In this document: positions 7,317 through 64,000 of the stretch, in pieces
Layout: each line of letters starts with the position of its first letter
Numbering within the stretch: the stretch's first letter is position 1
NCBI RefSeq assembly: GCF_018398315.1
Contig: NZ_JAHBRW010000002.1
Location: 1,348,637-1,412,636 of the forward strand
From: Chelatococcus sp. YT9
GTDB lineage: Bacteria > Pseudomonadota > Alphaproteobacteria > Rhizobiales > Beijerinckiaceae
Direction: 5' to 3'
DNA length: 64,000 bases
Program-made: the position numbers and the translations under genes
The notes under the pieces: model-generated
What the model was told of the DNA's origin: nothing
Databases searched by the model: none
Seen by the model: the letters and a program-made list of their open reading frames with translations, nothing else

Positions 7317-7338
7317 AGGTGAAGCTCCTCATGTTGCT

Positions 7339-7440: not shown

Positions 7441-7559
7441 GACCTTAACGAAGGCCGGCGGGCGCGGAATGCCGGGCGCTTGCGCAATCGGGCGAAGCTT
7501 TTAAGCGACCGGCACAACGGATGCGCTATGTGGCGAAGCCGCGCCTGAAACGGGTCGCA

Positions 7560-8891: not shown

Positions 8892-9060
8892 GGTCGTCTC
8901 CTTCTCGGTTCCGCCAGTTAATCCGCTTGCGGCAGCCGATAACAGCTTTCGCTTTTTCTTCGCCAGCCCTAACTTTTTGGAATTCGGCAGGACGCGACAC
9001 GCGCCCCTTTGCAGGAGCGGGACGCTCGGCCATCTTCTGGTCGAGACAAGAGGATGCACG
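8892..9060. promoter_or_regulatory. Divergent promoter region ubiD / aldehyde dehydrogenase
   Basis: These 169 bases separate two divergent units and must hold promoters for both. A T-rich motif at 8951-8987 resembles (25 of 37 bases, ungapped) one at 19151-19187, which lies in another divergent promoter region. I could not assign reliable -35/-10 boxes. The AraC regulator encoded at the end of the rightward unit is a natural candidate to act here. Confidence 0.4.
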
Positions 9061-10452: not shown

Positions 10453-10467
10453 TCTGGACCTGGGCGC

Positions 10468-11661
10468 ATGATCGACTTCACGAAAACCCGCGCAGCCTTC
10501 CACCTCCCTGAGGGTGTCGTCTATCTGGACGGCAATTCGCTCGGGCCTCTGCCCGTCGCGGCTGGCGAGCGCCTGGCGCGGATGTTGACGCAGGAATGGG
10601 GTGACCAGCTCATTCGCGGCTGGAACACCGCCGGATGGTATGTGCAGCCCCGCAAGGTCGGCGACCGGGTGGCACGGCTGATCGGCGCGGCGCCAGGCAC
10701 CGTGGTGATGGGCGATACCTTGTCGATCAAGGTCTATCAAGCGCTGTCCGCGGCGCTCGAATTCGTGCCCGAGCGGCGCGTCGTGCTGTCCGATAGCGGC
10801 AATTTTCCGTCCGATCTCTATATCGCTCAGGGACTTTTGGCTTCTCTCGGGCGTGGCTACGAACTGAAGATCGTCAAGCCTGAGGAGATTGAAGATGCCA
10901 TCGACGAGCGTGTTGCCGTCACGCTCATCACTGAAGTCGACTATCGCACCGGCCGTCTCCACGACATGAAGCGCCTCACCGCCAAGGCCCATGCGGCCGG
11001 AGCGGTGACGGTCTGGGATCTGGCGCATTCCGCCGGAGCCCTCGACGTCAATGTGACGGAAGCGGACGCGGATTTCGCGGTCGGCTGCACCTATAAATAT
11101 CTAAATGGTGGGCCCGGCGCGCCTGCCTTCATCTATGTCGCGCCTCGGCACGCCGACCAGGCGCGCCCGAGCCTGTCCGGCTGGATGGGTCATGATGCGC
11201 CTTTCGCCTTCGATCTGGACTATCGCCCCGCGCCCGGAATCGAACGGATGCGCGTCGGCACCCCGCCTGTCATAGCCTTGACGGTGCTCGATACCGCTCT
11301 CGACATCTGGGAGGGCGTCGACCTGCGCGATGTACGAGCCCAGTCGATCAATCTAAGCGAGCAGTTCATCGCCGGGGTGGAAGCGAACTGCCCGGGCCTC
11401 GAACTCGGCAGTCCGCGCGACCCGGCGGCGCGAGGCAGCCAAGTGTCCTTCCGCCACCCCCACGCCTATGCCGTCATGCAGGCTTTGATCGCCAGAGGTG
11501 TGATCGGCGACTTCCGGGCACCGGATTCCATGCGTTTCGGCTTCACGCCCCTCTATCTCGGCGAGGCCGAAATCGACAAGGCGGTGACCGTGCTGGCCGA
11601 GGTTCTGGACAAGCGGCTGTGGGACACGCCTGATTACCATCACAAGGCAGCCGTGACATGA
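10468..11661 (+). CDS. kynU: Kynureninase
   Basis: A 397-residue PLP enzyme of the kynureninase family, splitting L-kynurenine (or 3-hydroxykynurenine) into anthranilate (3-hydroxyanthranilate) and alanine. The N-terminus [13 protein letters not shown] is diagnostic. The PLP-contact motif WDLAHSAGA is followed by the Schiff-base lysine Lys210 in [16 protein letters not shown]-like [10 protein letters not shown] and the C-terminal RFGFTPLY also match. The stop overlaps the start of kynA (ATGA), indicating tight coupling. Confidence 0.96.
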
Positions 11662-12491
11662 CCGAGCCTTACGATCCCTCCGTCGAAGGCGCGGAAATGT
11701 CCTTCGACCGCAAAATGTCATACGGCGATTATCTCCATCTCGACGAGGTGCTGGGCGCGCAGAGGCCGCTTTCAGGAGCGCATGACGAGCTTCTGTTCAT
11801 CATCCAGCATCAGACCTCGGAATTGTGGATGAAGCTTGCCATCCATGAGATGCGCTCGGCTTCGCGTGCGCTGCGGGATGACCAGTTGCAGCCGGCCTTT
11901 AAGATGCTGACGCGGGTCGCCCGCATCTTTGATCAGCTCAATTCCGCCTGGGATGTGCTCCGGACCATGACGCCGTCCGAATACAACATCATGCGGCCAT
12001 CGCTCGGTCAGTCCTCCGGCTTCCAGTCATGGCAATACCGGGCCATCGAATATTTGGCGGGCAACCGCAACTTGGCGATGCTGCGGCCGCACGAGCACAG
12101 GCCGGAAACGCTCGGCCAGCTGGAGAGCATTCTGTCCGAGCCCTCCATCTACGACGAGGCGATCGCGCTTCTCCGGCGCAACGGCTTCGACGTGGGCGAC
12201 GAACCGCGGACCGATATCCGCCAGACCAGAGCTATCAATCCGAAGGTGCGGGAGGCGTGGCGGCAGATTTATGCCGACCCCCAGCACCATTGGCCGTTGT
12301 ACGAATTGGCTGAGAAGCTCGTCGACTTCGAGGATTATTTCCGCCGCTGGCGCTTCAACCACGTGACCACGGTGGAGCGCATCATTGGCTTCAAGCGCGG
12401 CACCGGCGGCACCGGCGGGGTTTCCTATCTGCGCCGGATGCTCGAGGTAGAGCTGTTCCCCGAACTCTGGCATGTCCGATCCGACCTTTAG
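11658..12491 (+). CDS. kynA: Tryptophan 2,3-dioxygenase
   Basis: A 277-residue haem dioxygenase converting L-tryptophan to N-formylkynurenine. The sequence shows the family hallmarks [29 protein letters not shown] (substrate-site residues), SGFQSWQYR and the haem-ligand histidine in [13 protein letters not shown]. The Gly-rich GTGGTGG loop and C-terminal FPELW are present too. Length is normal for bacterial TDO. It is translationally coupled to kynU, and the AraC regulator gene follows immediately. Confidence 0.97.
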
Positions 12492-12584
12492 GCGATGCTG
12501 TCCACCGAAGGGAGCGGGCTGCGTGCCGAATCTTCACAATCGATGATAATTTGTCCGGACCGTGCGAGCGGGCTGGAGACAAGT

Positions 12585-13646
12585 ATGGACGATTGTGAAG
12601 ACGCGGCTGGTGCAAGGGGGCTGTTCCGCGCCTATTTCGGCGGGCCGGAGGGAACGGTTGCCGCCACGTTTCGCAACCTGGCAAAATCCGAAGTGTACCT
12701 TGAGGTCGACAAACGGCTCGGCCTGTTCCACGCATGCTTTGATCTGCCTCAGGAGGAGGGGAGAGGGGGGTGGCGTTTCCTGTCCCCTTCCGAAGGCATA
12801 TTCGTGGTTCTGACTGACTGCGAATACACCACGATGCGCCATGAGCGCGTGGCCGCGGAGGGCTTGCTCGAGTTTCATTTCCTGCTCGCGGGTCCGGTCG
12901 AGCTCTCACTTCCCCAGGAGCGAGACGCGACCGCCCCGACCAACGTTTCGCTGATCGTCTGTCAGCAGGCGGAAGGGATGGCTTACGACGTGGTCTGTCA
13001 GCCCGGAACCTACAAGATGGCGAGTTTCTACGTCAGGCCGGAGCTCCTCAAGGAGAGCTTTGGCATGGATGTCTCGCACAGCATGGCACGGCAGTTGCTG
13101 TCGCCCCGCGAAGGCACCATGGCCATGTCCGAGCAAAAGATCGATCCCGAATTCCTGCGTCTCCTGCGCGATTTGTTCGAGATGAAGTTTACCGGCCCGA
13201 GGGATCTTCCGCTCGCGGCCGCCCGCATCATCGAGCTCCTCGTGCTCTCCGTCGATGCCATCGACCGCGGCGGCAAGGCTGAGGAGCAATCGATTGTTTT
13301 CACCGCCCGCGAACTCGCCATGTTCGATCGCGCACGGGACGTTCTGGCGAGCGACTTCTCGGAATCGCAGACCATTCCGAGATTGGCCCGGAAGCTCGGC
13401 ACGAACGCGACCAAGCTGAAAAGCGGATTTCGGCTACTGTATGGGACGACGATCTTCGCATATCGCAACCGCCATCGCATGCGTTGCGCCATGCAATTGC
13501 TGGCGGAAAGCGACACACCGATAGCCACTGTCGCCCAAGCTGTCGGCTTTCGGCATCAGGCCAGCTTCACGTCGGCATTTCGCGCGCATTTCGGGTTGAC
13601 GCCGAAGCAGGCGCGCCAGCGGTTGGTGCCCACGGACCCGCCCTGA
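12585..13646 (+). CDS. AraC family transcriptional regulator
   Basis: A 353-residue regulator with an N-terminal sensor region (cupin-like, no motif I can name) and a C-terminal AraC/XylS DNA-binding domain. The two helix-turn-helices span about residues 255-345, including IATVAQAVGFRHQASFTSAFRAHFG and LTPKQARQ. I chose ATG 12585 because GGAG lies 6 bases upstream. An in-frame ATG at 12495, just after the kynA stop, would add 30 residues of low-complexity leader. It probably controls the upstream ALDH-kynU-kynA unit, perhaps in response to tryptophan or a kynurenine intermediate. Confidence 0.9.
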   Translation: MDDCEDAAGARGLFRAYFGGPEGTVAATFRNLAKSEVYLEVDKRLGLFHACFDLPQEEGRGGWRFLSPSEGIFVVLTDCEYTTMRHERVAAEGLLEFHFLLAGPVELSLPQERDATAPTNVSLIVCQQAEGMAYDVVCQPGTYKMASFYVRPELLKESFGMDVSHSMARQLLSPREGTMAMSEQKIDPEFLRLLRDLFEMKFTGPRDLPLAAARIIELLVLSVDAIDRGGKAEEQSIVFTARELAMFDRARDVLASDFSESQTIPRLARKLGTNATKLKSGFRLLYGTTIFAYRNRHRMRCAMQLLAESDTPIATVAQAVGFRHQASFTSAFRAHFGLTPKQARQRLVPTDPP

Positions 13647-30413: not shown

Positions 30414-31352
30414 ATGGCAGCGTCATCGGGTACGCGTGCGAATTGGAAAGGCGTCCTCCGGGTTGGAGAGCTGAGTTGTCGCGTCGCCCTTTACACCGCC
30501 GCCTCAAGCTCTGACCGCATCGCTTTCCATATGCTCAACAGGCGCACCGGCAACCGGTTGCAGCGTCAATTTGCCGACAGCGAAACCGGCGCCGTCGTCG
30601 AGCGGGAGGATCAGGTCAAAGGCTACGAATCAAATTCGGGGGACTACATCGTCCTCGAACCAGAAGAAGTGGCCGCGGCCGTTCCCGAGAGCGACAAGAC
30701 ACTCGCCGTCTCAGCCTTTATCCGCTGTAGCGACGTCGACGACATCTATTTCGACCGGCCATATTTTCTCGCGCCTGCTGACCGTGAGGCTGATGAGGCT
30801 TACGAGCTCATTCGGGCGGGGATGAGCCGGAAGAAGGTGGCCGCTCTGGCACAGACCGTTCTGTTCCGGCGTGTCCGCAGTGTCCTTATCCGTGCTGAGG
30901 GCGATGGCCTCGTGGCCACGACTTTGAATTTCAATTATGAAGTGCGCTCCGCGGAGAACGCCTTCAGTGATGTGCCTTCGCTGCGTATCGAGGGTGAGAT
31001 GCTCCAGCTTGCCGAGCACATCATCAAGACGAAAGCGGGCACGTTTGATCCAGCGGCATTCGACGACCGCTATGAAGCCGCGCTCGCCGAACTCGTGAAA
31101 GCCAAACTCGAGGGCCGGAAGATCGTGGCACCCAAGCGTCCTCGTACCGGCAAGGTCGTCGATCTCATGGAAGCCTTGCGCGAAAGTGCAGGCCTGAGTG
31201 GAAGCAACCGCAAGTCTGCGCAACGCAAAAGTGCGCAACCAACGAAAGAAACCAAGTCCGCTGCGAAGGGTGGCAACACCCGCAAGACCGCTCGTCGTGC
31301 AGACAGCAAAACGGCGGCTAAGACCGCGCCAGCTCGACGGCGCGCGGGTTGA
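30414..31352 (+). CDS. ku: Non-homologous end joining protein Ku (first copy)
   Basis: A 312-residue prokaryotic Ku. The Ku core covers about residues 8-265, with WKGVLRVGELSCRVALYTA at the start, HMLNRRTGNRLQRQ, and the later LRIEGEMLQLAEHIIKTK segment. The last 50 residues form a basic Lys/Arg/Ala tail typical of extended bacterial Ku C-termini that contact DNA. It homodimerises on broken ends and recruits LigD. It lies 15 bases upstream of ligD on the same strand, with an EcfG promoter in front. ACGGAGGAGC precedes ATG 30414. Confidence 0.96.
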   Translation: MAASSGTRANWKGVLRVGELSCRVALYTAASSSDRIAFHMLNRRTGNRLQRQFADSETGAVVEREDQVKGYESNSGDYIVLEPEEVAAAVPESDKTLAVSAFIRCSDVDDIYFDRPYFLAPADREADEAYELIRAGMSRKKVAALAQTVLFRRVRSVLIRAEGDGLVATTLNFNYEVRSAENAFSDVPSLRIEGEMLQLAEHIIKTKAGTFDPAAFDDRYEAALAELVKAKLEGRKIVAPKRPRTGKVVDLMEALRESAGLSGSNRKSAQRKSAQPTKETKSAAKGGNTRKTARRADSKTAAKTAPARRRAG

Positions 31353-31367
31353 TAGGGGCGGCTTGAT

Positions 31368-33941
31368 ATGGTCAATCAACTCGAGCCCTACCGCAGCAAA
31401 CGTAACTTCCGGGCGACCACGGAGCCGCGCGGACGGCAGTCCCGGACGTCAGGTGACAGTTTCGTCATCCAGAAGCATGACGCGCGCCGGCTTCACTACG
31501 ACTTCCGTCTCGAGATGGATGGGGTGCTCAAGAGCTGGGCCGTGACAAGAGGCCCGAGCCTCGTGCCTGGGGAAAAGCGACTGGCTGTTCATGTCGAGGA
31601 TCACCCGCTCGAGTATGGTGATTTCGAAGGCACCATCCCGAAAGGGGAATATGGGGGAGGCGCCGTGATTGTATGGGATCGCGGCACGTGGTCGCCGATA
31701 GGTGATGCCCGCAAAGGTTACGCCAAGGGCGACCTCGAATTTGAGCTTCATGGAGAAAAGCTTCAAGGGCGCTGGCACCTGGTGCGCATGCACGGCAAGC
31801 CTGGGGAAAAGCGCGAGAATTGGCTGCTGATCAAGGGGGACGATGAATTTGCCCGGACGGGAGACGACGCCGATATCCTGACGGAGCAGCCCGCGTCTGT
31901 TAAGTCTGGCCGAGACGTGGGCGACGTCACTGGGGAGCCGCCTGGCTGGTCCGCAAAGACCGGACGGATCAGAAAACCGCTGAAGACGTCCGCCGAGTCG
32001 GCGCCATCGGCGAAGCGGGATGGCGAAGCGGCATCCAGAAGAAAAACCATGCAGCCCTCACTGATAAAGGGCGCGAAAAAGGCGCGAATGCCCGATTTTG
32101 TTCCGCCGATGCTTGCCACGCTTGTCGCCAAAGCACCGATCGGCGAGCAGTGGCTCCATGAGATCAAGTTCGACGGCTACCGGCTCCAAGCGCGTATCGA
32201 GGCCAATAGCGTCAAGCTACTGACCCGCAGCGGGCTGGATTGGACTGAGAAATTCGGCGAGGCAATTCCGACCTCGCTGAGGACACTTCCGGTTGATAAC
32301 GCCATCATCGACGGCGAACTGGTCGTTGAAACGGATGCCGGGGCGTCTGATTTTTCGGCCCTGCAGGCGGCGCTCAGCGAGGGGCGTAGTGATCACTTCC
32401 TCTTCTATGTCTTCGATCTGCTCTATCTGGACGGCTATGATCTGCGGCCCCTCGCTCTGACCGCGCGCAAAGATCTGCTCGAACAGATCGTTGCCGGCGA
32501 TCATGCCGGCCATATCCGGTATAGCAGTCATTTCATGGACAGCGGCGCCATGGTTCTGCGCCATGCTTGCAGGCTGAGCCTAGAGGGGATCGTCTCGAAG
32601 TTGCGTGACGCCCCGTATCGGGATGGCCGCAGCAAAAGCTGGGTCAAATCCAAATGCTCTGCGCGGCAGGAATTCGTGGTTGCCGGCTATGTTCCGTCGA
32701 CGATTTCCCGCCATGCTATCGGTTCGCTCATACTTGGGGTTTATGAGGACGGCGAGCTCCATCACGTCGGCCGCGTCGGCACCGGGTTCACAGGGGCCGT
32801 GGCGGAGGAGCTGTTTCGCAAGCTGGAAGGTCTTCGCGTCGAAGCGAGCCCCTTTGGGCACCGCCTGACAGCAGAGGAAAGGCGCCAGGCTCGATATGTG
32901 CAACCCACCCTGGTCGCGGAAATCGAGTTCCGCGCCTGGACTGCCGACGGGCATTTGCGCCATGCTTCGTTCCGTGGGCTGCGCGAGGACAAGGATCCCC
33001 GTGAGATTGTGCGCGAGGCGCCGAAACAAGACGCCGCCAAAGCGCCGTCTCCGCCGCGCCGCACCGTCAAGCTCACCCATCCCGATCGCCTGTACTGGCC
33101 GGACGAGGGCGTCACGAAAGAGGGGCTCGCGAACTATTACACCGAGGTCTGGCGCCATATCGCCCCGCATCTCGTGGGAAGACCTCTCGCACTTTTGCGC
33201 TGCCCTAACGGCATCACAGGCGAGAAGTTCTTTCAGAAGCATGCTTGGAAGGGACTGAATCCAAAGATCACGTTGGTCAAGGATCCTACGGACGGGGATG
33301 AACAGCCGCTCATCAGCATCAGCGATCTGGACGGTCTTATCGGGCTCGTCCAGTCGGCCGTCCTCGAAATCCACCCCTGGGGATCAACTGTGACTGATTG
33401 GGAGCATCCGGACAGGATCGTGATGGATCTCGATCCCGGCGAGGGCGTGTCGTGGCAGGCGGTCATCGATGCCGCGCAGGAGGTCCGTCAGCGCTTGACG
33501 GACGTGGGACTAGCCCCCTTCGTCAAAACGTCTGGCGGCAAGGGACTGCATGTAGTTGCGCCGCTCAGACCGAAAGCGGACTGGCCAGCCGTCAAAGCCT
33601 TCACCAAGGCGCTCGCCGATGCCATGGCTTCTGACGATCCCAGCCGCTACGTCTCCACCATCACGAAATCAAAGCGGCGCGGCAAGATCTTGGTGGACTA
33701 TCTGCGAAATCAACGCGGCATGACCGCAGTCGCGGCTTATTCCACGCGCGCCCGCCCCGGCGCTGCGGTCTCGGCGCCCATCACGTGGGAGGAGCTTGGG
33801 CCAGCCATTGGTCCGGATTATTTTACGGTCGAGACAATGCCGACGCGCTTGGCTGCGCTGACCCGGGACCCTTGGGACGGCTTCCATCGCGCAGCCGCGC
33901 CCTTGGAGATCGCGCCCCGCGGCCGAAGAAAGCGCGGTTGA
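31368..33941 (+). CDS. ligD: Multifunctional DNA ligase D
   Basis: An 857-residue NHEJ enzyme with three domains in order. Residues about 25-150 are the 3'-phosphoesterase domain (HDARRLHYDFRLEMDG, DHPLEYGDFEG). Residues about 240-540 are the ATP-dependent ligase domain with adenylation motif EIKFDGYR (Lys267). From about residue 565 is the primase-polymerase domain (THPDRLYWPDEGVTKEGL, MDLDPGEGVSW metal-binding Asp pair, KTSGGKGLH). PE-Lig-Pol is the usual order in proteobacteria such as Pseudomonas; mycobacterial LigD starts with Pol. It is probably cotranscribed with the upstream ku and converges on the second ku with a two-base gap. Confidence 0.97.
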   Translation: MVNQLEPYRSKRNFRATTEPRGRQSRTSGDSFVIQKHDARRLHYDFRLEMDGVLKSWAVTRGPSLVPGEKRLAVHVEDHPLEYGDFEGTIPKGEYGGGAVIVWDRGTWSPIGDARKGYAKGDLEFELHGEKLQGRWHLVRMHGKPGEKRENWLLIKGDDEFARTGDDADILTEQPASVKSGRDVGDVTGEPPGWSAKTGRIRKPLKTSAESAPSAKRDGEAASRRKTMQPSLIKGAKKARMPDFVPPMLATLVAKAPIGEQWLHEIKFDGYRLQARIEANSVKLLTRSGLDWTEKFGEAIPTSLRTLPVDNAIIDGELVVETDAGASDFSALQAALSEGRSDHFLFYVFDLLYLDGYDLRPLALTARKDLLEQIVAGDHAGHIRYSSHFMDSGAMVLRHACRLSLEGIVSKLRDAPYRDGRSKSWVKSKCSARQEFVVAGYVPSTISRHAIGSLILGVYEDGELHHVGRVGTGFTGAVAEELFRKLEGLRVEASPFGHRLTAEERRQARYVQPTLVAEIEFRAWTADGHLRHASFRGLREDKDPREIVREAPKQDAAKAPSPPRRTVKLTHPDRLYWPDEGVTKEGLANYYTEVWRHIAPHLVGRPLALLRCPNGITGEKFFQKHAWKGLNPKITLVKDPTDGDEQPLISISDLDGLIGLVQSAVLEIHPWGSTVTDWEHPDRIVMDLDPGEGVSWQAVIDAAQEVRQRLTDVGLAPFVKTSGGKGLHVVAPLRPKADWPAVKAFTKALADAMASDDPSRYVSTITKSKRRGKILVDYLRNQRGMTAVAAYSTRARPGAAVSAPITWEELGPAIGPDYFTVETMPTRLAALTRDPWDGFHRAAAPLEIAPRGRRKRG

Positions 33942-33943
33942 AT

Positions 33944-34747
33944 TCACCGGCCCTTCGTTTGCCGCTCCGCGGCGATGCTCTTCTTCAGGGCTTCCATAAT
34001 GTTGATCACGTTGGAGGCGGGCTCGGGCCCGCTCTTTCGCGCCGCCGGGCGCTTGCGCCCCTTTTTCTTTGCGGCGATGATCTCCAGAAGCTTGTCCTGC
34101 ACCGGGTCCTCCGCCATGGAGGGATCCCAGGGACGTGTGCGCTCCTCGATCAACTGGCTGACCAGGCGCAGCAGCTTTTGATCCGGCTTGTTCTGGGACG
34201 GATCGGGCCAATGGCCAGCGCCATCCCGCACCTCGTCGCCGTATCGCAAGGTCCAGACCACGATGCCGTTGTCATGGGGCTTCAGCAGGACGGCTCGTTC
34301 GCGCCGATACATCACCACCCTTGCGATCCCGCCCGTGTTCGTGGCCGCCATCGCGTCACGGATGACCGAATAGGCCTCTTCGCCAACTTTGTCGTCGGGC
34401 GTGAGATAGTGGGGCCGATCATACCAGATCCAATCGATGCTCTCGATCGGTACGAAGGTGTCGATATCAATTGTGCGGGTGCTTTCAAGCGCGACCGCCT
34501 CGAGCTCGTCATCCTCCAGCATGACATACTCATCGTCGCCCCGCGGGTAGCCCTTGACCGCATCGTCTTCGTCAATGGGCTTGCCGCTGCCTGAATCGAT
34601 GTATCGGCTGACAACCCGGTTTCCTGTCTTGCGATTGAGCGTATGGAACCGCACCTTCTCGCTCTCGGAGAGAGCGGGGGTCATCGAGACGGCACAGGTG
34701 ACGAGCGAGAGCTTCAGATAACCTTTCCAGAAGGAGCGTTGGGCCAT
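33944..34747 (-). CDS. ku: Non-homologous end joining protein Ku (second copy)
   Basis: A 267-residue Ku with core motifs WKGYLKLSLVTCAVSMTPA, FHTLNRKTGNRVVSRY and DWIWYDRPHYLTPD. It lacks the long basic tail of the first copy, ending about 15 residues after NVINIMEALKKSIAAE. It is transcribed towards ligD, so the two ku genes flank ligD in opposite orientation. Multiple Ku proteins are known in rhizobia and can form hetero- or homodimers. CGGAGGTATACGCG precedes the ATG. Confidence 0.96.
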   Translation of the reverse strand: MAQRSFWKGYLKLSLVTCAVSMTPALSESEKVRFHTLNRKTGNRVVSRYIDSGSGKPIDEDDAVKGYPRGDDEYVMLEDDELEAVALESTRTIDIDTFVPIESIDWIWYDRPHYLTPDDKVGEEAYSVIRDAMAATNTGGIARVVMYRRERAVLLKPHDNGIVVWTLRYGDEVRDGAGHWPDPSQNKPDQKLLRLVSQLIEERTRPWDPSMAEDPVQDKLLEIIAAKKKGRKRPAARKSGPEPASNVINIMEALKKSIAAERQTKGR

Positions 34748-55378: not shown

Positions 55379-55719
55379 CATACGATAACAGACGTGGGAG
55401 CTCAAAGCGCCCACGCCAACCTGTTGATCAGTTTGCGGCATGCGCGCGCTTATTTCGGCTGCAAACACGATGTGTCCTCATGGCGTCGGCCGCGGCGCCT
55501 CTGCCATGGGCTCTCTCGACCGCCCGAGTGGATCTTTATATTTGCCGGCTGTCTTGCTTAAACGGCTTACGGGAAAGGCGGACGTCTTTTCCGCGGCATG
55601 GGCGCGCGACAGTTTCGTTCGTTCGTGACAAGGTGCGTGATGCCTGGGTGGCCAACCACACTCACATGTCGCTGATGTGCGGCCCCCCTTTCCTCATCCC
55701 ATGGCAACAGGGAAGCTTG
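55379..55719. other. 341-base divergent region GntR regulator / gamma-glutamyltransferase
   Basis: No gene is supported. The reading frame of the transferase stays open upstream to 55480, but that stretch has no ribosome site and atypical composition, so I treat it as leader. No operator like 48437-48463 is visible here. Confidence 0.4.
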
Positions 55720-57309
55720 ATGGACTACGACCTCCCATATCCCTCGCAACGCTCCCCTGTGCTCGGGCGAAACATCGTCGCCACATCGCAACCGCTTGCG
55801 GCCCAGGCCGGCCTCCTGATGCTCGCGCGCGGCGGCAATGCGATTGATGCGGCCATCGCCGCCGCCATGGTGCTGACAGTCGTGGAGCCCACCGGCTGCG
55901 GTATCGGCAGCGACGCCTTTGCCATCTTGTGGGATGGCAAGGAACTGCATGGCCTCAACGCCTCCGGTCGAGCACCTGCGGCATGGACGCCGGAGCGCTT
56001 CGGGCATCTCAAGCAGATGCCGGAGCTCGGGTGGGACAGCGTAACCGTGCCGGGCGCGGTTTCGGCCTGGATCGCGCTCTGGGAGAGGTTCGGCAGTCTG
56101 CCGCTCGCGGAGATCGCGGCTCCTGCTATTGGCTACGCGCGCGACGGCTATCCTCTGAGCCCGATCATCGCGGTGCAATGGGAGCTTGGCGCCCGGCGGC
56201 TCGGCAAGGAACCGGGCTTCGCGGATGCATTTATTCCCGCAGGAGCTGTTCCCAAGGCTGGTGAGATCGTGCGGCTGCCCGATCACGCGCGGACCCTCGA
56301 GGCCATCGTGGCGAGCAAGGGGGAAGATTTCTACCGCGGCGACCTCGCGAAGCGCATGGTGGCACACAGTGCCGCCCACGGCGGTGTGATGAGCCTTGAG
56401 GATCTCGCGGAGCACAAGGTCGATTGGGTCGGAACAGTCTCACAGCGCTTCGCCGGTGCGACAGTGCATGAGATCCCGCCGAACGGGCAGGGGATCGCGG
56501 CCCTGATCGGACTTGGAATTCTCGATGCGCTCGGGATTGGAGACAAGCCGGTCGATGATATTGAAACGCTGCACCTATCGATCGAGGCGACCAAATCGGC
56601 GCTGGTCGACATCGCCGCCCACGTCTCCGATATCGATTCGATGCAGTTGCGGCCGGAGGAGTTGCTTGACCCCGCCTACATTGCGGCTCGTGCTGCGCTG
56701 ATCGATCGCAACCAGGCGGGCGATCCAGGCCACGGAGCCCCGCGATCGGGCGGCACGGTGTATCTTGCGGCCGCGGATGCCGCCGGTCGTATGGTGTCGT
56801 TCATCCAGTCCAATTTCGCCGGCTTCGGTTCGGGCGTCGTCGTGCCCGGCACCGGTATCAGCATGCAGAACAGGGGCAAGGGTTTCAGTCTGGGGCAGGG
56901 CCATCCCAATGTGGTGGCTCCACGCAAGCGCCCCTTCCATACGATCATACCCGGCTTCGCCACGGACCATGCCGGCAACCCCCTCATGGCCTTCGGCGTG
57001 ATGGGCGGCCCGATGCAGGCGCAGGGACATCTCCAGATGGCCCTGCGTATTCTGCGATATGGCCAGAACCCGCAGACGGCGGCCGACGCACCGCGCTGGC
57101 GCGTCATGCAGGGGCGCAAGGTTTCGGTGGAGGCCAACTTCAATCCCGCGCTGGTCGAGGCTTTGCGCCAGCGCGGCCATGAGGTGCTCGTCGAAACGCC
57201 GGACGCCGTGTTCGGCTTCGGTGGGGCACAGGCGATCCTGCGCGATGGCCCATTGTCCTATGTCGCCGGATCCGATCCGCGCAAGGATGGGCAGGCCGTG
57301 GCGTTCTAG
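55720..57309 (+). CDS. Gamma-glutamyltransferase family protein (Ntn hydrolase)
   Basis: A 529-residue member of the gamma-glutamyltranspeptidase family, normally a proenzyme cut before a catalytic Thr. That Thr is most likely Thr346 in SGGTVYLAAAD, giving large and small subunits of about 345 and 184 residues. Further motifs: ARGGNAIDAAIAAAMVLTVVEP, TGCGIGSDAF, and the C-terminal MGGPMQAQGHLQ. No signal peptide is apparent from the chosen start (GGGAAGCTTG before ATG 55720), unlike secreted GGT. Many such cytoplasmic homologues hydrolyse gamma-glutamyl or other amide/acyl substrates. Confidence 0.88.
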   Translation: MDYDLPYPSQRSPVLGRNIVATSQPLAAQAGLLMLARGGNAIDAAIAAAMVLTVVEPTGCGIGSDAFAILWDGKELHGLNASGRAPAAWTPERFGHLKQMPELGWDSVTVPGAVSAWIALWERFGSLPLAEIAAPAIGYARDGYPLSPIIAVQWELGARRLGKEPGFADAFIPAGAVPKAGEIVRLPDHARTLEAIVASKGEDFYRGDLAKRMVAHSAAHGGVMSLEDLAEHKVDWVGTVSQRFAGATVHEIPPNGQGIAALIGLGILDALGIGDKPVDDIETLHLSIEATKSALVDIAAHVSDIDSMQLRPEELLDPAYIAARAALIDRNQAGDPGHGAPRSGGTVYLAAADAAGRMVSFIQSNFAGFGSGVVVPGTGISMQNRGKGFSLGQGHPNVVAPRKRPFHTIIPGFATDHAGNPLMAFGVMGGPMQAQGHLQMALRILRYGQNPQTAADAPRWRVMQGRKVSVEANFNPALVEALRQRGHEVLVETPDAVFGFGGAQAILRDGPLSYVAGSDPRKDGQAVAF

Positions 57310-57728: not shown

Positions 57729-58328
57729 TCAGGGGGGCGCCGGTTCGCCCCATCGGCGGACCGTGCCTGCGTCGATGTCGAAGAGATCGAGAGCACGCCC
57801 CACGCTGTGGGCCACCATCTCGTCGAGGCTCTGCGGGCGCGCATAGAAGGCGGGTACGGGCGGCATAACGATGGCGCCCATTTCCGTGACCTGCGACATG
57901 CTGCGCAGATGGCCCAGGTGCAGCGGCGTTTCGCGGACCATGAGGACGAGGCGCCGGCGCTCCTTGAGAACGACATCGGCCGCGCGACTGAGCAATCCCG
58001 AGGTTACGCCGCTTGCGATTTCCGACAGGCTACGGATCGAGCAGGGCGCGACCAGCATGCCCATGGTGCGGAAGGAGCCGGAGGATATCGCGGCGCCGAT
58101 ATCCTCCGCCTTGTACACGACGCTGGCCAGGGCATGAACGTCCGCCACTTTCAGCGACATTTCATGCGCGAGCGTGATCTGCGCCGAGCGGGTCATCACG
58201 AGATGCGTCTCGATTCCGATCTGGCGCAGAATTTCCAGCGCACGCACGCCATACACGATGCCGGAAGCACCGCTGATGCCGATGATCAGCCGGCGCGTCG
58301 CCTCACCGCCGTGCGTTGCGCGCGACAT
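57729..58328 (-). CDS. ubiX: UbiX family flavin prenyltransferase
   Basis: A 199-residue flavoprotein that attaches dimethylallyl phosphate-derived carbon to FMN, making the prFMN cofactor of UbiD enzymes. Diagnostic: GISGASGIVYGVRALEILR at the N-terminus, GSFRTMGMLVAPCSIRSLSEIASG, and RRRLVLMVRETPLHLGHL near the C-terminus. It is the last gene of a leftward operon, seven bases after the binding-protein gene, that begins with a UbiD homologue beyond 63.8 kb. It may also serve the UbiD at 7.6-8.9 kb. Confidence 0.94.
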   Translation of the reverse strand: MSRATHGGEATRRLIIGISGASGIVYGVRALEILRQIGIETHLVMTRSAQITLAHEMSLKVADVHALASVVYKAEDIGAAISSGSFRTMGMLVAPCSIRSLSEIASGVTSGLLSRAADVVLKERRRLVLMVRETPLHLGHLRSMSQVTEMGAIVMPPVPAFYARPQSLDEMVAHSVGRALDLFDIDAGTVRRWGEPAPP

Positions 58329-58335
58329 GCTGCCC

Positions 58336-59334
58336 TCACGCCTTCGGCAGGAAGTCGTTGGTATAAAACACGGAGACGTCGGCCTCGGTCTTCGTGAGGC
58401 CCCCGAACTCCTTCATCAGGGTCTGCGCTTCTTCCCAGCGTTTCTTGCTGGAGTAGCCAATCCCGTGGGCCTTGGTTTCCGCGGTTTCCAGCAAGGGCGC
58501 GGTTGCCTTGAGTTTCGCCACCTCGACCTCGGCCTTGAGGCTGGGCGAGCGCTTGATCAGTGCGGCGACGGCCTCCTCCGGATGCTCGATGGCATAGCGA
58601 TAGGCCCGGATGCTGGCCTTGACGAAGCCAGCGACCACCTTCGGCGAGGAGGCGATCGTATCCTTGTGCGCGGCAATGCCGTCGCCCATGGTATCGATGC
58701 CAAAGTCCGAATAGGCGAAATACTGGACCTCGTTGTTGGTCGTTGCCGCGAGCCCAATGTAGGAATCGTTGGTGAAGCCGGTGATGGCCTGGGCGCGCTT
58801 GGCAAGGAACGTCTGGGTGCGGGTGCCGCCGTCCGATGCGACGATCTGCACGGCGTTGCGCTGCACGTTGTTCTTGGCGAGAAGCGCGTAAAGCATCGTC
58901 GTGGTCGTGTCGCCTTGCAGCGTCGCCACCACCTTGCCGACGAGGTCGGACGGCTTGGTGATATTCTGATCCTTCCAGCTGATCAGCGCGTTCGGGCTGA
59001 TCTGATAGATCTGGGCGACCGTCCGCACCGGCATGCCTTGCGCGGCGCCGAGCATGAGCGAGGGCGGATCGACGATGGTGAAGGTGTCCTGCCCGCTGGC
59101 GACGAGCTGCATGGAGGAGGTGACGCCCTTGCCCTCCAGCACTTCGACGTCGAGGCCTTCCTCCCGGTAGAAGCCCTTGTCCACGCCCAGGAGATAGGGC
59201 GAACGATGGCCGTTGTAGTTGAAGGCGAGCCGCACCGTCGCCTTGGTCAGACCTTGCGCGCGGGCGAAGCCGCCGGTGAGCCCGCAAACGCCGGCCGCCG
59301 CTGTGCCGGCAAGTAATGAACGTCTTGAAAGCAT
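58336..59334 (-). CDS. NitT/TauT-type ABC transporter substrate-binding protein
   Basis: A 332-residue periplasmic receptor of the SsuA/THI5-like family. The signal peptide has a Tat-like SRRSLL start. The mature part shows VRLAFNYNGHRSPYLLGVDKGFYREEGLDVEV. Homologues bind sulfonates, taurine, nitrate, thiamine precursors or aromatic acids such as phthalate. The UbiD/UbiX partners favour an aromatic or unsaturated carboxylate. The ATPase gene is 17 bases upstream. Confidence 0.9.
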   Translation of the reverse strand: MLSRRSLLAGTAAAGVCGLTGGFARAQGLTKATVRLAFNYNGHRSPYLLGVDKGFYREEGLDVEVLEGKGVTSSMQLVASGQDTFTIVDPPSLMLGAAQGMPVRTVAQIYQISPNALISWKDQNITKPSDLVGKVVATLQGDTTTTMLYALLAKNNVQRNAVQIVASDGGTRTQTFLAKRAQAITGFTNDSYIGLAATTNNEVQYFAYSDFGIDTMGDGIAAHKDTIASSPKVVAGFVKASIRAYRYAIEHPEEAVAALIKRSPSLKAEVEVAKLKATAPLLETAETKAHGIGYSSKKRWEEAQTLMKEFGGLTKTEADVSVFYTNDFLPKA

Positions 59335-59351
59335 GCTCTCTTACCCCTCTG

Positions 59352-60131
59352 TCAGTATTTCTTGAGAACGCCGTGGCGCTCGAAGAGATGGCGCACATGC
59401 GCCACGATCTCCACGAAACGCCGTGATTCCATGGTTTCGGGCCTGCGCGGGAAAGGCAGGTCGACCTCCACGATCTCCGCGATGCGGCCGGGACGGGGCG
59501 TCATCACCAGGACGCGCTGGGCGAGCAGGATCGCCTCCTGGATGTCGTGCGTGACGAACATCACGCTCTTGCGTTCCCTCAGCCAGAGCTGATGGAGCTC
59601 CATGACCATCTGCTCGCGCGTCAGGGCATCGAGCGCGCCGAAGGGCTCGTCCATGAGAAGGAGCGGCGGATTGTGGATGAGCGCCCGGCAGATGGACACC
59701 CGCTGGCGCATGCCGCCAGAGAGCTCGTAAGGGTATTTGTCCTCGAAACCGGCGAGGCCGACGAGCGCCAGCAAGTCGCGCGCCTTCTGCTCGTGGGCTT
59801 TCAGATCGAGCCCGCGGATCTGCGGCTGGATCATGACATTGTCGAGCACCCGCCGCCAGTCAAGCAGGACATCGCTCTGGAAGACGATGCCGATATCGGT
59901 CACCGGCCGATCGATGCGCCGGCCCGCCTGTTCGACCGTTCCGGAGGTCGGAAATTCGAGCCCCGAGGCGAGCGACAGCAACGTACTCTTGCCGCAGCCG
60001 CTCGGCCCGAGAATGGAGAGAAACTCGCCCTCGGCAATACGGAAATCGATGCCGTCCAGGGCCTGGACCGGCCCGCTCGCGGTGCGGTAGACCTTGCCGA
60101 CTTCGGTCAGCGCGAGTGCGGGCGCGGTCAT
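59352..60131 (-). CDS. NitT/TauT-type ABC transporter ATPase
   Basis: A 259-residue ABC ATPase of the SsuB/TauB group: Walker A GPSGCGKST, Q-loop FQSDVLLDWR, signature LSGGMRQRVSICRAL, Walker B LLMDEPFGALD and H-loop VTHDIQEAI. ATG 60131 overlaps the permease stop (ATGA); an in-frame ATG at 60170 would lie inside the permease gene. Confidence 0.93.
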   Translation of the reverse strand: MTAPALALTEVGKVYRTASGPVQALDGIDFRIAEGEFLSILGPSGCGKSTLLSLASGLEFPTSGTVEQAGRRIDRPVTDIGIVFQSDVLLDWRRVLDNVMIQPQIRGLDLKAHEQKARDLLALVGLAGFEDKYPYELSGGMRQRVSICRALIHNPPLLLMDEPFGALDALTREQMVMELHQLWLRERKSVMFVTHDIQEAILLAQRVLVMTPRPGRIAEIVEVDLPFPRRPETMESRRFVEIVAHVRHLFERHGVLKKY

Positions 60132-60910
60132 TGCCCGCCTCCGTGCTTCAGACGCTGCGACACGTGCCAAGGCAGCGCCCAGCGCTCGACCCGGTCGACG
60201 ATCGCGAACAGGGCGACGCCCATGAGGCTCAGAACGACGAGCACGGTGAAGGACAGAGTAATGTCGAGCGAGCCGTTAGCGACGATGAGCTGGTAGCCGA
60301 GGCCGCGGTCGGCGGCCACGAATTCGCCGACGATGGCCCCGACGATGGCGAGCGTGCTCGCGACCTTGACGCCGGCGAAGATATGCGGCAGTGCCGCCGG
60401 GACCTGGAAATTCACGAAGGTCTGCCAGCGCGAGGCGCCCATGGAGCGCGCAAGCCAGCTGACTTCCTTCGGTGCCGAGCGGAAGCCGACCAGCGAATCG
60501 ACGACGATCGGGAAGAAGCAGATCAGGAAGGCGATGAGAACCTTCGGCATGAGGCCGAAGCCGAACCACACCACGAGCAACGGCGCGATGGCGACCTTAG
60601 GAATGGTCTGCGAGGCCACGAGCACGGGGTAGAGCATCCGCTCCGCAATACGGATCTGGGCAAGAAGCGCCGCAAGCGGAATGCTGATGACGATCGCGAG
60701 CAGAAACCCGATCACCACCTCGATGGTCGTGGCCCCGAAGTGATAGAGGATCGAGTCCCAATCCGTGAAGAGACGCTGCGCGATCGCCGAGGGCGGCGGC
60801 AGGAGATAGGCCGGGACGCCACCAATCCGCACACCGGCTTCCCAGAGGACGAGAATAAGAACGCCAACGATGGGACCATCGAGCGAGGTAGGAATGCGAA
60901 ATTGGTCCAT
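60128..60910 (-). CDS. NitT/TauT-type ABC transporter permease
   Basis: A 260-residue inner-membrane protein with six helices and the coupling loop RSMGASRWQTFVNFQVPAALPHIFAG, characteristic of SsuC/TauC-type permeases. It lies 17 bases after the PLP enzyme gene and overlaps the ATPase gene by four bases. Confidence 0.93.
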   Translation of the reverse strand: MDQFRIPTSLDGPIVGVLILVLWEAGVRIGGVPAYLLPPPSAIAQRLFTDWDSILYHFGATTIEVVIGFLLAIVISIPLAALLAQIRIAERMLYPVLVASQTIPKVAIAPLLVVWFGFGLMPKVLIAFLICFFPIVVDSLVGFRSAPKEVSWLARSMGASRWQTFVNFQVPAALPHIFAGVKVASTLAIVGAIVGEFVAADRGLGYQLIVANGSLDITLSFTVLVVLSLMGVALFAIVDRVERWALPWHVSQRLKHGGGQ

Positions 60911-60927
60911 GATGCCTCCAAGACCTC

Positions 60928-62028
60928 CTAAGCGATGGTCCGGATGGCCGCAACGAGTCTCTCGTTGTCCGCCCGTGCGCGTAGTGACACTCTCAGCGAG
61001 CGGTGGCGCTCCAGCCCGCGGAATGAAGTTGCGTCAGCGACGACGATACCCTGCGCGGCAAGAGCCTCGGCCGCGACAGCGGAAGTGTGATGGGCCAGAT
61101 CCATCAGGATCATGTTGGCGTTGCTGCCGCGAATGGAGATGCCGGGGATCGCCTCTATGGCCGTGATGAAGAAGTCTTTCTCCGCTGCGAAAGTGGCTTT
61201 GCAGCGTGCGAGGAATTCTTCGTCCGCAAGCGCAGCCACCGCCGCATCCACGGAAGGGACGGCAAGGTTGAAAGGCGGACGCCCGACCTCGGCGACGGCG
61301 ACAAGCTGGGGATCGGCCACGGCATAGCCGATGCGCAGGCCCGCCAAGCCGAAATATTTGGAGAAGGTACGCATCACCACGACGTTGCGTAGGCGCTTCG
61401 GCAGGGCCATCGCGCCGTCCTCGACCGGATTGATCAAGGCCTCGTCGACCACGAAGATCGTGTCCCCGTGGCGGGTCGCGAGATCGGCGATGGTCTCGAC
61501 CGCAAAACGTTCGCCGGTCGGGTTATTCGGCGAACAGATGAAGGCAAGCGCTATGGTTTCCCGTGCAAGCGCCGCATCGAAGGCCGCGAGATCCGTCTTT
61601 TCCGGCGACGGGCTCTCGACGGCGACGACACGGCAGCCGCGCAGGTTGGCTTCCAGTTCGTAGCGCGGAAAGGTCGGCAGATGCACCAGCACCGCGCAGC
61701 CTTCGCTCGTCCAGGCATGGATCAGGAGCTTGATGACGTCGTCGAGGCCGGCGCCGAAGAAGAGCATGTCTTCCGGCACATCATGCCGCAGCGCCACAGC
61801 TTGGCGGAGCCGGCCGAACCGCAGGTCCGGATAGAGATGACACGAGCCCAGCGCGGCTTGGGCCGCAGCGATCGCCGCCTTGGGCGGGCCGAACGGATTG
61901 ATGTTCAGGGAGAAGTCGAGAATCTCGGCGGGATCGAGGCCATGCCGGGCGGCGATGGTCGCGACCGATGTCTCGGCCTCGTAGAGCCTGACCGAGGCAA
62001 ATTCTGCATTGCGGGGATTGAGCGTCAC
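60928..62028 (-). CDS. PLP-dependent aminotransferase, HisC/CobD-like
   Basis: A 366-residue fold-type I PLP enzyme. Seen: ILDFSLNINPFGPP, YPDLRFGRLRQAVA, FICSPNNPTG (Asn contacting PLP), FVVDEALI and the Schiff-base lysine in TFSKYFGLAGLRIGYA. This matches the histidinol-phosphate aminotransferase/threonine-phosphate decarboxylase (CobD) branch. No histidine or cobalamin genes are near, so a catabolic transamination or decarboxylation of an amino acid is more likely. The start overlaps the previous gene (ATGA). Confidence 0.88.
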   Translation of the reverse strand: MTLNPRNAEFASVRLYEAETSVATIAARHGLDPAEILDFSLNINPFGPPKAAIAAAQAALGSCHLYPDLRFGRLRQAVALRHDVPEDMLFFGAGLDDVIKLLIHAWTSEGCAVLVHLPTFPRYELEANLRGCRVVAVESPSPEKTDLAAFDAALARETIALAFICSPNNPTGERFAVETIADLATRHGDTIFVVDEALINPVEDGAMALPKRLRNVVVMRTFSKYFGLAGLRIGYAVADPQLVAVAEVGRPPFNLAVPSVDAAVAALADEEFLARCKATFAAEKDFFITAIEAIPGISIRGSNANMILMDLAHHTSAVAAEALAAQGIVVADATSFRGLERHRSLRVSLRARADNERLVAAIRTIA

Positions 62029-62747
62029 GCCAGGAGCCTCCCGTAACCCTGGAGTTGTGGTGCGATGTCAAGCGCCCGGAAGATGCCCCAGAGCGTGACC
62101 TGGTTGCTGGTCAGCACCGGCTTGCCGAGTTCCGCTTCCAGGGCGCCTGCCACTTCCAGCGCCCGGAAGTCCGTGCAGCTCACGAAGACTGCCTCGCTGT
62201 CAGGTGTGTTGGTGGCGCGCACGAGGGCCGCCACCTCGGCGGGGGACACCTCACGGATCGCCTTGCCGGAAAGTCCGAGCCCGCGCACGGCCGTGACTTC
62301 GATGCCATGGCTCAGGAGAAAGCGGCTCTCAGCCTCGTTGATCACGTCGAGATAGGGCGTCGCCAGTGCCACGCGCCGCAAGCCGAGAGCCGAGCAGGCC
62401 TCGATGATGGCCCGCGATGTCGCGACCACCGGGCAGCCGGTGACACTGCCGATGGTCTCGATCTGCCGCGCGAGGCCGGCCTCGCCGTCGATGAAGCTGC
62501 CGCTCGTGCAGGCGAAGGCAACGACCTCGGGAGAGACTGAGGCGATGAGTGCGGCCGCCGCGGCGACGCCTTCATTCATCGCGCGCAAACCTTCGGGAGT
62601 GGTCTCGCGCAGCATCACGCGGGTGGCGTGGAACGTCAGGCCGGGCGGGGCCACGGCGGCGCAGTCAGGCTCGATGACGGCATTGACGGAGGGGATGATG
62701 AGCCCCACCCGGCGCGCGCTATCCGGCCTTGCGGACGCAGTTTTCAT
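62025..62747 (-). CDS. Asp/Glu racemase superfamily protein, maleate isomerase/arylmalonate decarboxylase-like
   Basis: A 240-residue two-domain protein. The two active-site cysteines are visible in AFACTSGSFIDG and VFVSCTDFRALE. The N-terminal VGLIIPSVNAVIEPDC is typical of maleate cis-trans isomerases and arylmalonate decarboxylases. Members isomerise, racemise or decarboxylate small dicarboxylates by Cys chemistry. It overlaps both neighbours by four bases. With UbiD and DUF4392 in the same operon, an unusual dicarboxylate or amino-dicarboxylate route is implied. Confidence 0.88.
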   Translation of the reverse strand: MKTASARPDSARRVGLIIPSVNAVIEPDCAAVAPPGLTFHATRVMLRETTPEGLRAMNEGVAAAAALIASVSPEVVAFACTSGSFIDGEAGLARQIETIGSVTGCPVVATSRAIIEACSALGLRRVALATPYLDVINEAESRFLLSHGIEVTAVRGLGLSGKAIREVSPAEVAALVRATNTPDSEAVFVSCTDFRALEVAGALEAELGKPVLTSNQVTLWGIFRALDIAPQLQGYGRLLA

Positions 62748-63781
62748 CTCAGTTTCTGCCAGGAGGTCTGGTAGCCGGCAATGTTGCCGCTTTCGCGCTG
62801 GCTCAGCACGACGAGGGAGCGCAGGAGATCCACCAGCGCGGCGTTCGTGCGGGCATCGGTGCCGTCCACATAGAGGCGGAGCTGGCCGCCGACAGGGTCG
62901 ATCGCGCCAGCGCGCACGCAGGCCTCGATCAGCCGGACTTCCTCGGCGCCATCATGGAAGGCGGCGTCATTGCCGGTGAGCGCGGCGAGGCAGGCGGCGA
63001 TGCCATAGGCGCCCCAGTTGGAGATATTGGCAATGACGGCGACATCCGCCGGCTGGACCGCCGCGATGGTCTCGCCGAGCGGCACCTCGCGCCGCACATC
63101 ATCGGCGACGATGCCCATGCCGAGCTCGTTGCCAAGATCGCCCACCCCGATGGTCGGAATACCGCGCTTGCGCGCCTCGGCGAAGAGGATGTCGGTCTTG
63201 GCCGTGAAGGACGAAATCTCGAAGCCGCCGCCACCGTGATATTCGCCGTCGCTGCCGGCGCCCGGCCGCTCCACGGCGACCAGGGCTTTCGGCTGCAGGC
63301 GATCGAGAAGCGCGATCGCCGCGGTCTCCGCCTCGGCGGCATCCACGGGAAACCCGACGAGTGCGCAACGATTGCGGCCGGAATGGAGTTCGTCGAGGGA
63401 GGCCGGGATGAGCCCGGTCGTCGCGAAACAAGCCTCCATGCAGGGCACGACCGAGTCCTCGGACACGCCGACCGGGATAGCCCCGAGGCTGACGGCGAGG
63501 GCCTTGGCGATGACCGCGGCGCCGATCGGCCCGTCGGTCTCCGGCCGGTCATAGCCGCGCATGATGAAGCCCGAGAGCACGAGCACCGCGTCGCCTTCGC
63601 CGACGTTGTCAGCGAGCAGCCGGCTCGCGGCGAGCGTCAGCGGCTGGCCTCCAGCCTTCTCACGGGCCGAGGCGTACAGCTTGAGCAGCGGAATGCCCTT
63701 GAGGATCGTCCAGTTCGACATCGGCGCCGTGACGAGGTGGTCAAGGGCCTCGCCGATCCGCTCAATACTAATGCCCGACAT
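62744..63781 (-). CDS. DUF4392 protein, D-glutamate cyclase C-domain-like
   Basis: A 345-residue protein of the DUF4392 family, homologous to the C-terminal part of mammalian D-glutamate cyclase (DGLUCY), which makes 5-oxo-D-proline from D-glutamate. Family motifs seen: RGYDRPETDGPIGAAVIAKA, VERPGAGSDGEYHGGGG and GVGDLGNELGMG, the last two likely forming the metal/substrate site. ATG 63781 overlaps the upstream UbiD stop by 14 bases. Whether the bacterial protein cyclises D-glutamate or acts on another substrate is unknown; its operon partners are not typical D-amino-acid genes except the racemase-fold protein. Confidence 0.82.
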   Translation of the reverse strand: MSGISIERIGEALDHLVTAPMSNWTILKGIPLLKLYASAREKAGGQPLTLAASRLLADNVGEGDAVLVLSGFIMRGYDRPETDGPIGAAVIAKALAVSLGAIPVGVSEDSVVPCMEACFATTGLIPASLDELHSGRNRCALVGFPVDAAEAETAAIALLDRLQPKALVAVERPGAGSDGEYHGGGGFEISSFTAKTDILFAEARKRGIPTIGVGDLGNELGMGIVADDVRREVPLGETIAAVQPADVAVIANISNWGAYGIAACLAALTGNDAAFHDGAEEVRLIEACVRAGAIDPVGGQLRLYVDGTDARTNAALVDLLRSLVVLSQRESGNIAGYQTSWQKLR

Positions 63782-64000
63782 CGATGTAATCCTCCAGGCG
63801 GACGGTTTCCTCGCCCGGGAAACGCCTGCGCTCGAACAACCCCTTAAGATGCATAGGCACGGTGGCGTCAATGCCGACCTTGCCGCGATGGACATCGCGC
63901 ACATCCTCGCGCGTGTAGCTCGGGATGCGTGGGACCATATACACCCCCGTTTCCGGCGTGCAGCGCGTCTGGATGGCCCAGAGAACGTCGGCGGCGTTGA
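63768..64000 (-). CDS. UbiD family decarboxylase, C-terminal part (gene runs past the window end)
   Basis: The last 77 codons of a gene entering from the right edge. The translated end contains NAADVLWAIQTRCTPETGVYMVP, GKVGIDATVP and FERRRFPGEETVRLEDY before TAG at 63768-63770. DVLWA-QTR and KVGIDAT are hallmarks of the UbiD C-terminal domain. It is the first visible gene of the leftward operon that ends with ubiX. Its active-site residues lie outside the window. It differs from the UbiD at 7.6 kb. Confidence 0.85.
   Translation of the reverse strand, partial: NAADVLWAIQTRCTPETGVYMVPRIPSYTREDVRDVHRGKVGIDATVPMHLKGLFERRRFPGEETVRLEDYIDVGH

Follow-up and report, generated by a model that had tools for sequence, protein, structure and literature searches.

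A block of nine genes lying across the end of a 64,000-nucleotide stretch of the Chelatococcus sp. YT9 genome (the window; contig NZ_JAHBRW010000002.1, positions 1,348,637 to 1,412,636) is held together in four lineages, with an operator-like site and active-site residues that, judging from sequence, are intact. It encodes a UbiD family decarboxylase using prenylated flavin mononucleotide (prFMN), a UbiX family flavin prenyltransferase, a DUF4392 protein, a relative of arylmalonate decarboxylase (AMDase), a pyridoxal phosphate (PLP) enzyme, a three-gene ATP-binding cassette (ABC) importer and a divergent IclR regulator. We give about an even chance to the idea that these genes form a self-contained mobile operon, controlled by its own IclR protein, with which the cell imports and degrades an unsaturated or heteroaromatic carboxylate that contains nitrogen. 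The enzymes all fall into known families, and the gene combination is conserved. The original prediction, made from the letters of the window, knew of no described pathway with this set, and we likewise found no paper describing it in the open-access literature searched.

The genome comprises 6.74 Mb in 7 contigs. The region past the window end was read from the same contig (C2), and its coordinates are kept in window numbering:

57729..58328, minus strand: UbiX family flavin prenyltransferase, 199 aa (TIGR00421)
58336..59334, minus strand: periplasmic receptor, NMT1/THI5-like, 332 aa (PF09084, 170 bits)
59352..60131, minus strand: ABC transporter ATPase (PF00005)
60128..60910, minus strand: ABC transporter permease (PF00528)
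60928..62028, minus strand: fold-type I PLP enzyme between HisC and CobD, 366 aa
62025..62747, minus strand: AMDase/maleate-isomerase-like protein, 240 aa (PF17645, 138.7 bits)
62744..63781, minus strand: DUF4392 (GLUCM-like_C, TON_0340 family) protein, 345 aa (PF14336)
63768 to about 65111, minus strand, only 63768..64000 inside the window: UbiD family prFMN decarboxylase (TIGR00148)
about 65165-65193, past the window end: candidate IclR operator
about 65244-66104, plus strand, outside the window: divergent IclR regulator gene (PF01614, PF09339)

The protein families of the eight leftward genes were assigned via Pfam and NCBIfam. From UbiD to UbiX, neighbouring genes in the window lie -14, -4, -4, 17, -4, 17 and 7 bases apart, which bears out the tight arrangement first described (overlaps or gaps of at most 17 bases): the measured extremes are an overlap of 14 bases and a gap of 17. 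The gene recognized as a UbiD end at the window edge continues past position 64000 to about 65111, its start being one choice among several candidate codons, and is followed by the IclR gene.

Conservation, probable mobility and putative regulation of the block

With the nine operon proteins as queries, the nine genes were found in identical order, with IclR divergent from the block, at all nine opened loci carrying an operon-type DUF4392 gene, so that the order, for which chance had been considered initially, is not accidental. These loci are the window, L038 from Chelatococcus asaccharovorans, L039 from Rhizobiales bacterium 64-17, L027 and L028 from genomes G028 and G138, L040 from Afifella marina, L050 on plasmid pRR4-35_4 of Pseudohalocynthiibacter aestuariivivens, and L091 and L092 from two further genomes of the window's genus. 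L029, in genome G107, is counted once with L040, and G028 and G138 are called Afifella from the genus label they have in common with G107. The four lineages are Chelatococcus, Rhizobiales 64-17, Afifella and the Pseudohalocynthiibacter conjugative plasmid. Over the seven aligned copies, identity to the window is 78-94% for UbiD, 73-94% for the DUF4392 protein, 68-94% for the receptor, 62-89% for the AMDase-like protein and 59-89% for the PLP enzyme; the DUF4392 counterpart in C. asaccharovorans DSM 6462 is 94% identical. The UbiD and DUF4392 genes overlap by 14 bases in the seven copies measured (7/7). When flanking open reading frames (ORFs) were compared for the window, L027, L028, L038, L039 and L040, strong matches were confined to members of one lineage: the window and L038 share them on the IclR side, and L027, L028 and L040 share them among themselves. 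What matches between lineages outside the block is limited to transporter, regulator and UbiD paralogues, with identities not exceeding 43%. These nine genes therefore make up the conserved unit.

The block is patchily distributed. PF14336 was found in 14 of the 397 genomes of the order: four carry the operon (YT9 itself, G028, G107 and G138), seven carry DUF4392 without it, and three (G146, G173, G314) were left out of locus inspection. Neither the eight non-operon DUF4392 loci of those seven genomes nor the distant DUF4392 pair in L041 gave a match to the operon UbiD, AMDase-like or PLP proteins. At a cut-off of E 1e-60, operon-type DUF4392 was detected in 3 of 11 genomes of the Afifella family (3 of 5 in its genus) and in 3 of 60 genomes of the window's own family, all three from its genus. 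When 385 genomes of the class were searched with a UbiD profile (E 1e-100), the operon's own UbiD scored 997 bits and nothing from other genomes exceeded 352 bits; a genome-contig scan with two narrow peptide patterns returned three operon loci and one distant relative. DUF4392 matched 72 plasmid records; only the operon copy reaches 60-80% identity, the other 71 staying below 60%. The plasmid bearing this copy, pRR4-35_4, was typed as conjugative by MOB-suite; an IS6 transposase and a TIGR02444 gene precede the block, which ends 851 bases short of the record end, and the record start carries an IS21 pair. Patchy presence and the plasmid copy point to horizontal transfer of the block; the latter also suggests that Alphaproteobacteria pass the trait among one another.

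A layout of the form CAAC-N3-GTTG-N9-CAAC lies upstream of UbiD in 9/9 loci, as a single occurrence per stretch searched. Its core in the YT9 copy is a perfect 21-base palindrome (65173-65193), unique in the genome; in this regulon search, aimed at additional pathway genes, the next best places, at 3 mismatches, number 6 versus 3 for a reversed-pattern control. In the plasmid copy, both arms have changed jointly (ACCAAC-ATC-GTTGGT). Inverted repeats were tested against 200 mononucleotide shuffles per locus, L091 and L092 being left out. Those of the window, L038 and L039 were equalled by 0/200 shuffles and those of Afifella by 2, 3 and 4 of 200, the best repeat there lying between the second and third half-sites; the repeats of the plasmid copy (45/200) and of L070, a sibling operon presented below (8/200), are not significant alone. 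Genome-wide, the loose layout occurs at three places versus none in the control: at the operon, just upstream of an IclR-like gene (by eye, L090) and inside an ORF (L088). The layout may therefore be a common feature of IclR proteins. When its ligand was sought through the nearest families, the regulator could be identified neither as BhcR (140.9 against an NCBIfam cut-off of 350) nor as PcaR/PcaU (113.2 against 284.75). PcaU has a three-repeat operator, for which our literature search brought no confirmation.

Predicted functions of the enzymes and importer

Both partners of the prFMN chemistry initially proposed, the decarboxylase and its cofactor maker, score over their family cut-offs: 345.1 bits against 244.85 for UbiD (TIGR00148) and 231.5 against 108.9 for UbiX (TIGR00421). 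The active-site residues of UbiD, the DUF4392 protein, the AMDase-like protein and the PLP enzyme are intact in the seven copies checked, those of UbiD being R164, E267 and E272. Its best solved relatives, which have the same Arg/Glu/Glu residues, are 6h6v (297.5 bits) and then AnInD, an indole-3-carboxylate decarboxylase (7p9q, 208.3 bits). Only a handful of UbiD enzymes are described as characterized in detail, and 6H6V corresponds to HmfF (PMC8988006), whose H297 is the histidine that sets furan specificity (PMC7976604). By our own count, this residue is position 296 of the PDB chain. We take Arg304 to be a further specificity residue of HmfF. At these His and Arg positions, the operon UbiD has Asp309 and Ile317 in 7/7 copies and, unlike the HmfF system, the nine proteins include no hmf oxidoreductase. 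A furan dicarboxylate was rejected as substrate on the grounds that UbiD is devoid of the HmfF-type residues. In HudA, N318 at the matching position is close enough to a nitrogen of bound imidazole to form a hydrogen bond, and complete conversion of pyrrole-2-carboxylate is reported for the wild type and N318D only (PMC7976604). Asp309 would fit a substrate carrying an N-H group, but does not prove it.

Beside the operon of Rhizobiales 64-17, a second UbiD (L039:6232-7701) has the HmfF-type His and Arg and, for this reason, may be a furan-dicarboxylate decarboxylase. In the whole YT9 genome, PF02441 detects two UbiX-sized frames, both in UbiD operons of C2, and one 421-aa frame on C1. As UbiX-sized frames occur only in UbiD operons, these two proteins may supply prFMN to the other UbiD proteins of the genome.

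The DUF4392 protein (PF14336, 247.1 vs 27.9 bits) matches TON_0340 of Thermococcus onnurineus by sequence (E 4.7e-32, about 30% identical), and its predicted model (mean predicted local distance difference test, pLDDT, 79.0) gives target-normalized template modelling scores of 0.82-0.88 with the 15 TON_0340 chains listed. Six acidic residues matching the TON_0340 metal binders (E81, D83, E171, D215, E219, D306) are present in 7/7 copies. While fold and ligands are the same, the operon protein is about 75 residues longer and its gene sits with those of an importer and a UbiD. TON_0340 is described as a di-metal protein whose phosphatase activity, dependent on Mn, is very low; the authors left open the natural substrate of DUF4392 proteins, a family with relatives from archaea to humans (PMC5132392). 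D-glutamate cyclase activity was reported for a mouse protein that combines DUF1445 and DUF4392, in passages that do not attribute it to a single domain (PMC5339696). Operon and mammalian (DGLUCY) proteins have the DUF4392 domain in common, but a Pfam search of the eight operon proteins recovered only PF14336 of the DGLUCY architecture and no DUF1445. The original label of a DUF4392/D-glutamate-cyclase-like protein is thus upheld as regards PF14336; its cyclase part refers to an activity measured on the two-domain mouse protein, and the operon protein belongs with the TON_0340 di-metal family. DUF4392 genes also occur elsewhere as close pairs (L053:6923-10376, L055:6986-9123, L041:5987-9419), and a Sinorhizobium pair encloses a gene annotated as selenocysteine synthase.

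In the AMDase-like protein, C80 aligns with Gly74 of AMDase and C191 with Cys188, both cysteines being present in 7/7 copies. A second cysteine at the Gly74 position is reported to mark racemases of the AMDase family (PMC4996985), and the two residues mark this protein as a probable two-Cys racemase/isomerase rather than an arylmalonate decarboxylase. It has PF17645 in common with AMDase, maleate isomerase and EutA, and has Tyr132 and a Thr-Ser pair at the AMDase dioxyanion-hole positions. Neither specific identity could be retained: the AMDase pattern of a single Cys188 with Gly74 is absent and the score lies below the NCBI cut-off, and EutA is excluded at 129.1 against 318 (TIGR02990). Of the Cys-Cys maleate isomerase/arylmalonate decarboxylase relative first proposed, the two cysteines and the family remain and the AMDase pattern does not; decarboxylation is therefore assigned to UbiD.

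The fold-type I enzyme, first called HisC-like, is a PLP enzyme with the PLP lysine (Lys224) and with Asp195 and Asn169 in the 7/7 copies aligned, but it scores below the cut-offs of both HisC (TIGR01141, 239.7 bits against 276.55) and CobD (TIGR01140, 231.5 against 290.55). Near its C-terminus, R350 and R352 are present in 7/7 copies; by eye, the other HisC-like ORF of the genome, on C1, lacks them. The TauABC-type importer of the original prediction can be kept at the superfamily level only, with TauA at 35.4 against 304.25, TauB at 231.4 against 357 and TauC at 87.9 against 342. The nearest solved structures to the receptor are 4nmy (E 1.3e-22) and the ThiY-type 3ix1 (E 6.3e-20), far ahead of the taurine receptor (E 5.8e-4).

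Related UbiD operons and neighbouring genes

A second operon lies on C2 from about 1428 kb (L005:4057-11012 and on), with about 20 kb between its UbiD and that of the first operon. It comprises genes for a GntR-type regulator (by eye), UbiD, UbiX, an Asp/Glu-racemase-family protein (by eye; PRK07475 in NCBIfam), a flavin adenine dinucleotide (FAD) oxidoreductase, a further FAD enzyme and a TIGR02444 protein, with a divergent aldehyde dehydrogenase, a thiamine diphosphate enzyme and an ABC importer (by eye). This layout recurs on plasmid 1 of Paracoccus denitrificans and largely in S. meliloti, where the incomplete gene table of the run has no racemase row. The P. denitrificans-type operon has UbiD, UbiX, a racemase-family protein, a possible amine-removing enzyme and a nearby ABC importer in common with the nine-gene block. 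However, it encodes FAD and 2Fe-2S proteins instead of a PLP enzyme, has no DUF4392 and another type of regulator, and its UbiD is just 38-40% identical to the one studied here. Because UbiD, UbiX, racemase, FAD oxidoreductase and importer are seen both in the second operon and in P. denitrificans, the comparison suggests that UbiD catabolic operons form a broader class. A sibling operon on pRR4-35_1 (L070), from the same strain as pRR4-35_4, has the order IclR-receptor-ATPase-permease-UbiD-UbiX, a regulator with 49% identity and the same operator layout, but nothing in the stretch matches DUF4392, the AMDase-like protein or the PLP enzyme; the UbiD of this operon is 40% identical, with Glu at position 309.

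Genes for proteins of the uncharacterised TIGR02444 family occur near UbiD operons at five loci (L005:4057-4566, L050:10189-10707, L068:12450-13016, L069:13454-13993, L070:2839-3375). At L069:10726-11040, a (2Fe-2S)-binding protein gene is labelled as resistance gene poxtA by PLSDB at 100% identity; judging from the catabolic-type operon around it, the label is likely to be false. Within the window, a gamma-glutamyltransferase family gene (55480-57309) scoring below the NCBI equivalog cut-off adjoins the UbiX end, outside the conserved block. A cluster at 6939-13646 encodes RidA, a UbiD decarboxylase (7560-9104), aldehyde dehydrogenase, kynureninase, tryptophan 2,3-dioxygenase and an AraC-type regulator; an aminobenzoate or aminomuconate formed as tryptophan is broken down would be a possible substrate of this UbiD. 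At 30414-34747, a DNA ligase D gene lies between two Ku genes, forming a non-homologous end joining set.

Proposed pathway and alternatives

In the pathway that we propose, the ABC importer would take up a small carboxylate, unsaturated or heteroaromatic and bearing nitrogen, UbiX would make prFMN and UbiD would release one carboxylate as CO2. The two-Cys enzyme would racemise or cis-trans isomerise a carboxylate intermediate, and the PLP enzyme would remove or transfer an amino group, more likely as an aminotransferase than as a decarboxylase. The di-metal DUF4392 enzyme would hydrolyse or close a ring (lactam), or release phosphate, and its product would enter central metabolism. We infer UbiD decarboxylation with UbiX-made prFMN most firmly, followed by isomerisation or racemisation by the two-Cys protein; the transamination and DUF4392 steps are weaker proposals. 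The import-and-breakdown operon initially envisaged is thereby kept as a dedicated, conserved and apparently regulated unit, with decarboxylation assigned to UbiD.

Such a catabolic operon is supported by the constancy of gene order (9/9), UbiD-DUF4392 overlap (7/7) and operator layout (9/9), and by a receptor nearest to the ThiY type. The UbiD/UbiX/racemase operons of this genome and P. denitrificans also carry an amino-acid-oxidase-like or FAD-dependent oxidoreductase. Of the 71 non-operon plasmid records with DUF4392, seven stretches were opened; six contain a gene for a PLP enzyme or an aldehyde dehydrogenase, and five have an importer run beside DUF4392. Several points weigh on the other side. 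Two of these five importers are of the tripartite tricarboxylate type, so that DUF4392 contexts are mixed, while in L056 just a receptor gene lies about 7 kb away and the L054 stretch contains no importer. Among 13 non-operon UbiD proteins, the position of Asp309 is occupied by Asp in 7, Glu in 4 and His in 2, and the neighbourhoods of the Asp-bearing ones are varied (three loci, one neighbour tested and the others judged by eye). This weakens Asp309 as a marker naming an N-H ring; since Asp is common there, it speaks against a furan dicarboxylate more than for any one ring. The nine proteins include no ring-opening oxygenase, and an aromatic ring would therefore need genes elsewhere. The predicted receptor model is poor (mean pLDDT 41.8), too weak for ligand inference.

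Alternatively, the block could salvage or make a cofactor-like heteroaromatic compound. In this case the ThiY-like importer would take up a ring precursor, UbiD would trim a carboxylate, and the PLP enzyme and a phosphatase-like DUF4392 protein would act on phosphorylated amino intermediates. The proximity of the receptor to the ThiY type fits this scheme, as does a PLP enzyme placed between HisC and CobD, both of which use phosphate esters. The Mn-dependent phosphatase activity of TON_0340 in vitro would also agree with it, but that activity was reported as very low (PMC5132392). With no kinase among the nine proteins, and with a patchy presence (3/11 in the Afifella family, 3/60 in the own family) and a conjugative plasmid that fit accessory catabolism better, we regard cofactor salvage as unlikely.

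We find still less probable a D-amino acid route in which the two-Cys enzyme racemises an acidic amino acid, the DUF4392 protein acts as D-glutamate cyclase, as the original prediction had considered, and UbiD/UbiX perform a side reaction. The cysteines do occupy racemase positions and DUF4392 is a domain of the mouse cyclase, but the passages on the latter do not credit a single domain with the activity (PMC5339696), its DUF1445 was not found in the eight operon proteins, the block has no 5-oxoprolinase and UbiD/UbiX would be left unexplained. To the same low degree we credit a breakdown of furan or pyrrole acids of the HmfF/HudA kind with passenger genes: HmfF is indeed the best solved UbiD match (297.5 bits), but its His/Arg pair is Asp/Ile in 7/7 copies, while the neighbouring UbiD of L039 keeps His/Arg, and the conserved gene overlaps speak against passengers. 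As for a chance cluster or an annotation artefact, we found no point in its support; with order and operator layout constant in 9/9 loci of four lineages, it can practically be dismissed.

Returning to the catabolic operon, it is tempting, though we hold this more tentatively than the catabolic role itself, to suggest that the block encodes an undescribed pathway joining prFMN decarboxylation to a di-metal DUF4392 step, in which the partner enzymes would reveal the natural substrate of DUF4392. The operon offers a handle on orphan UbiD chemistry as well as on DUF4392, a family shared with mammalian D-glutamate cyclase. Both become testable thanks to the importer and regulator that the operon carries, as the ligand of the receptor and the inducer of the regulator would point to the substrate.

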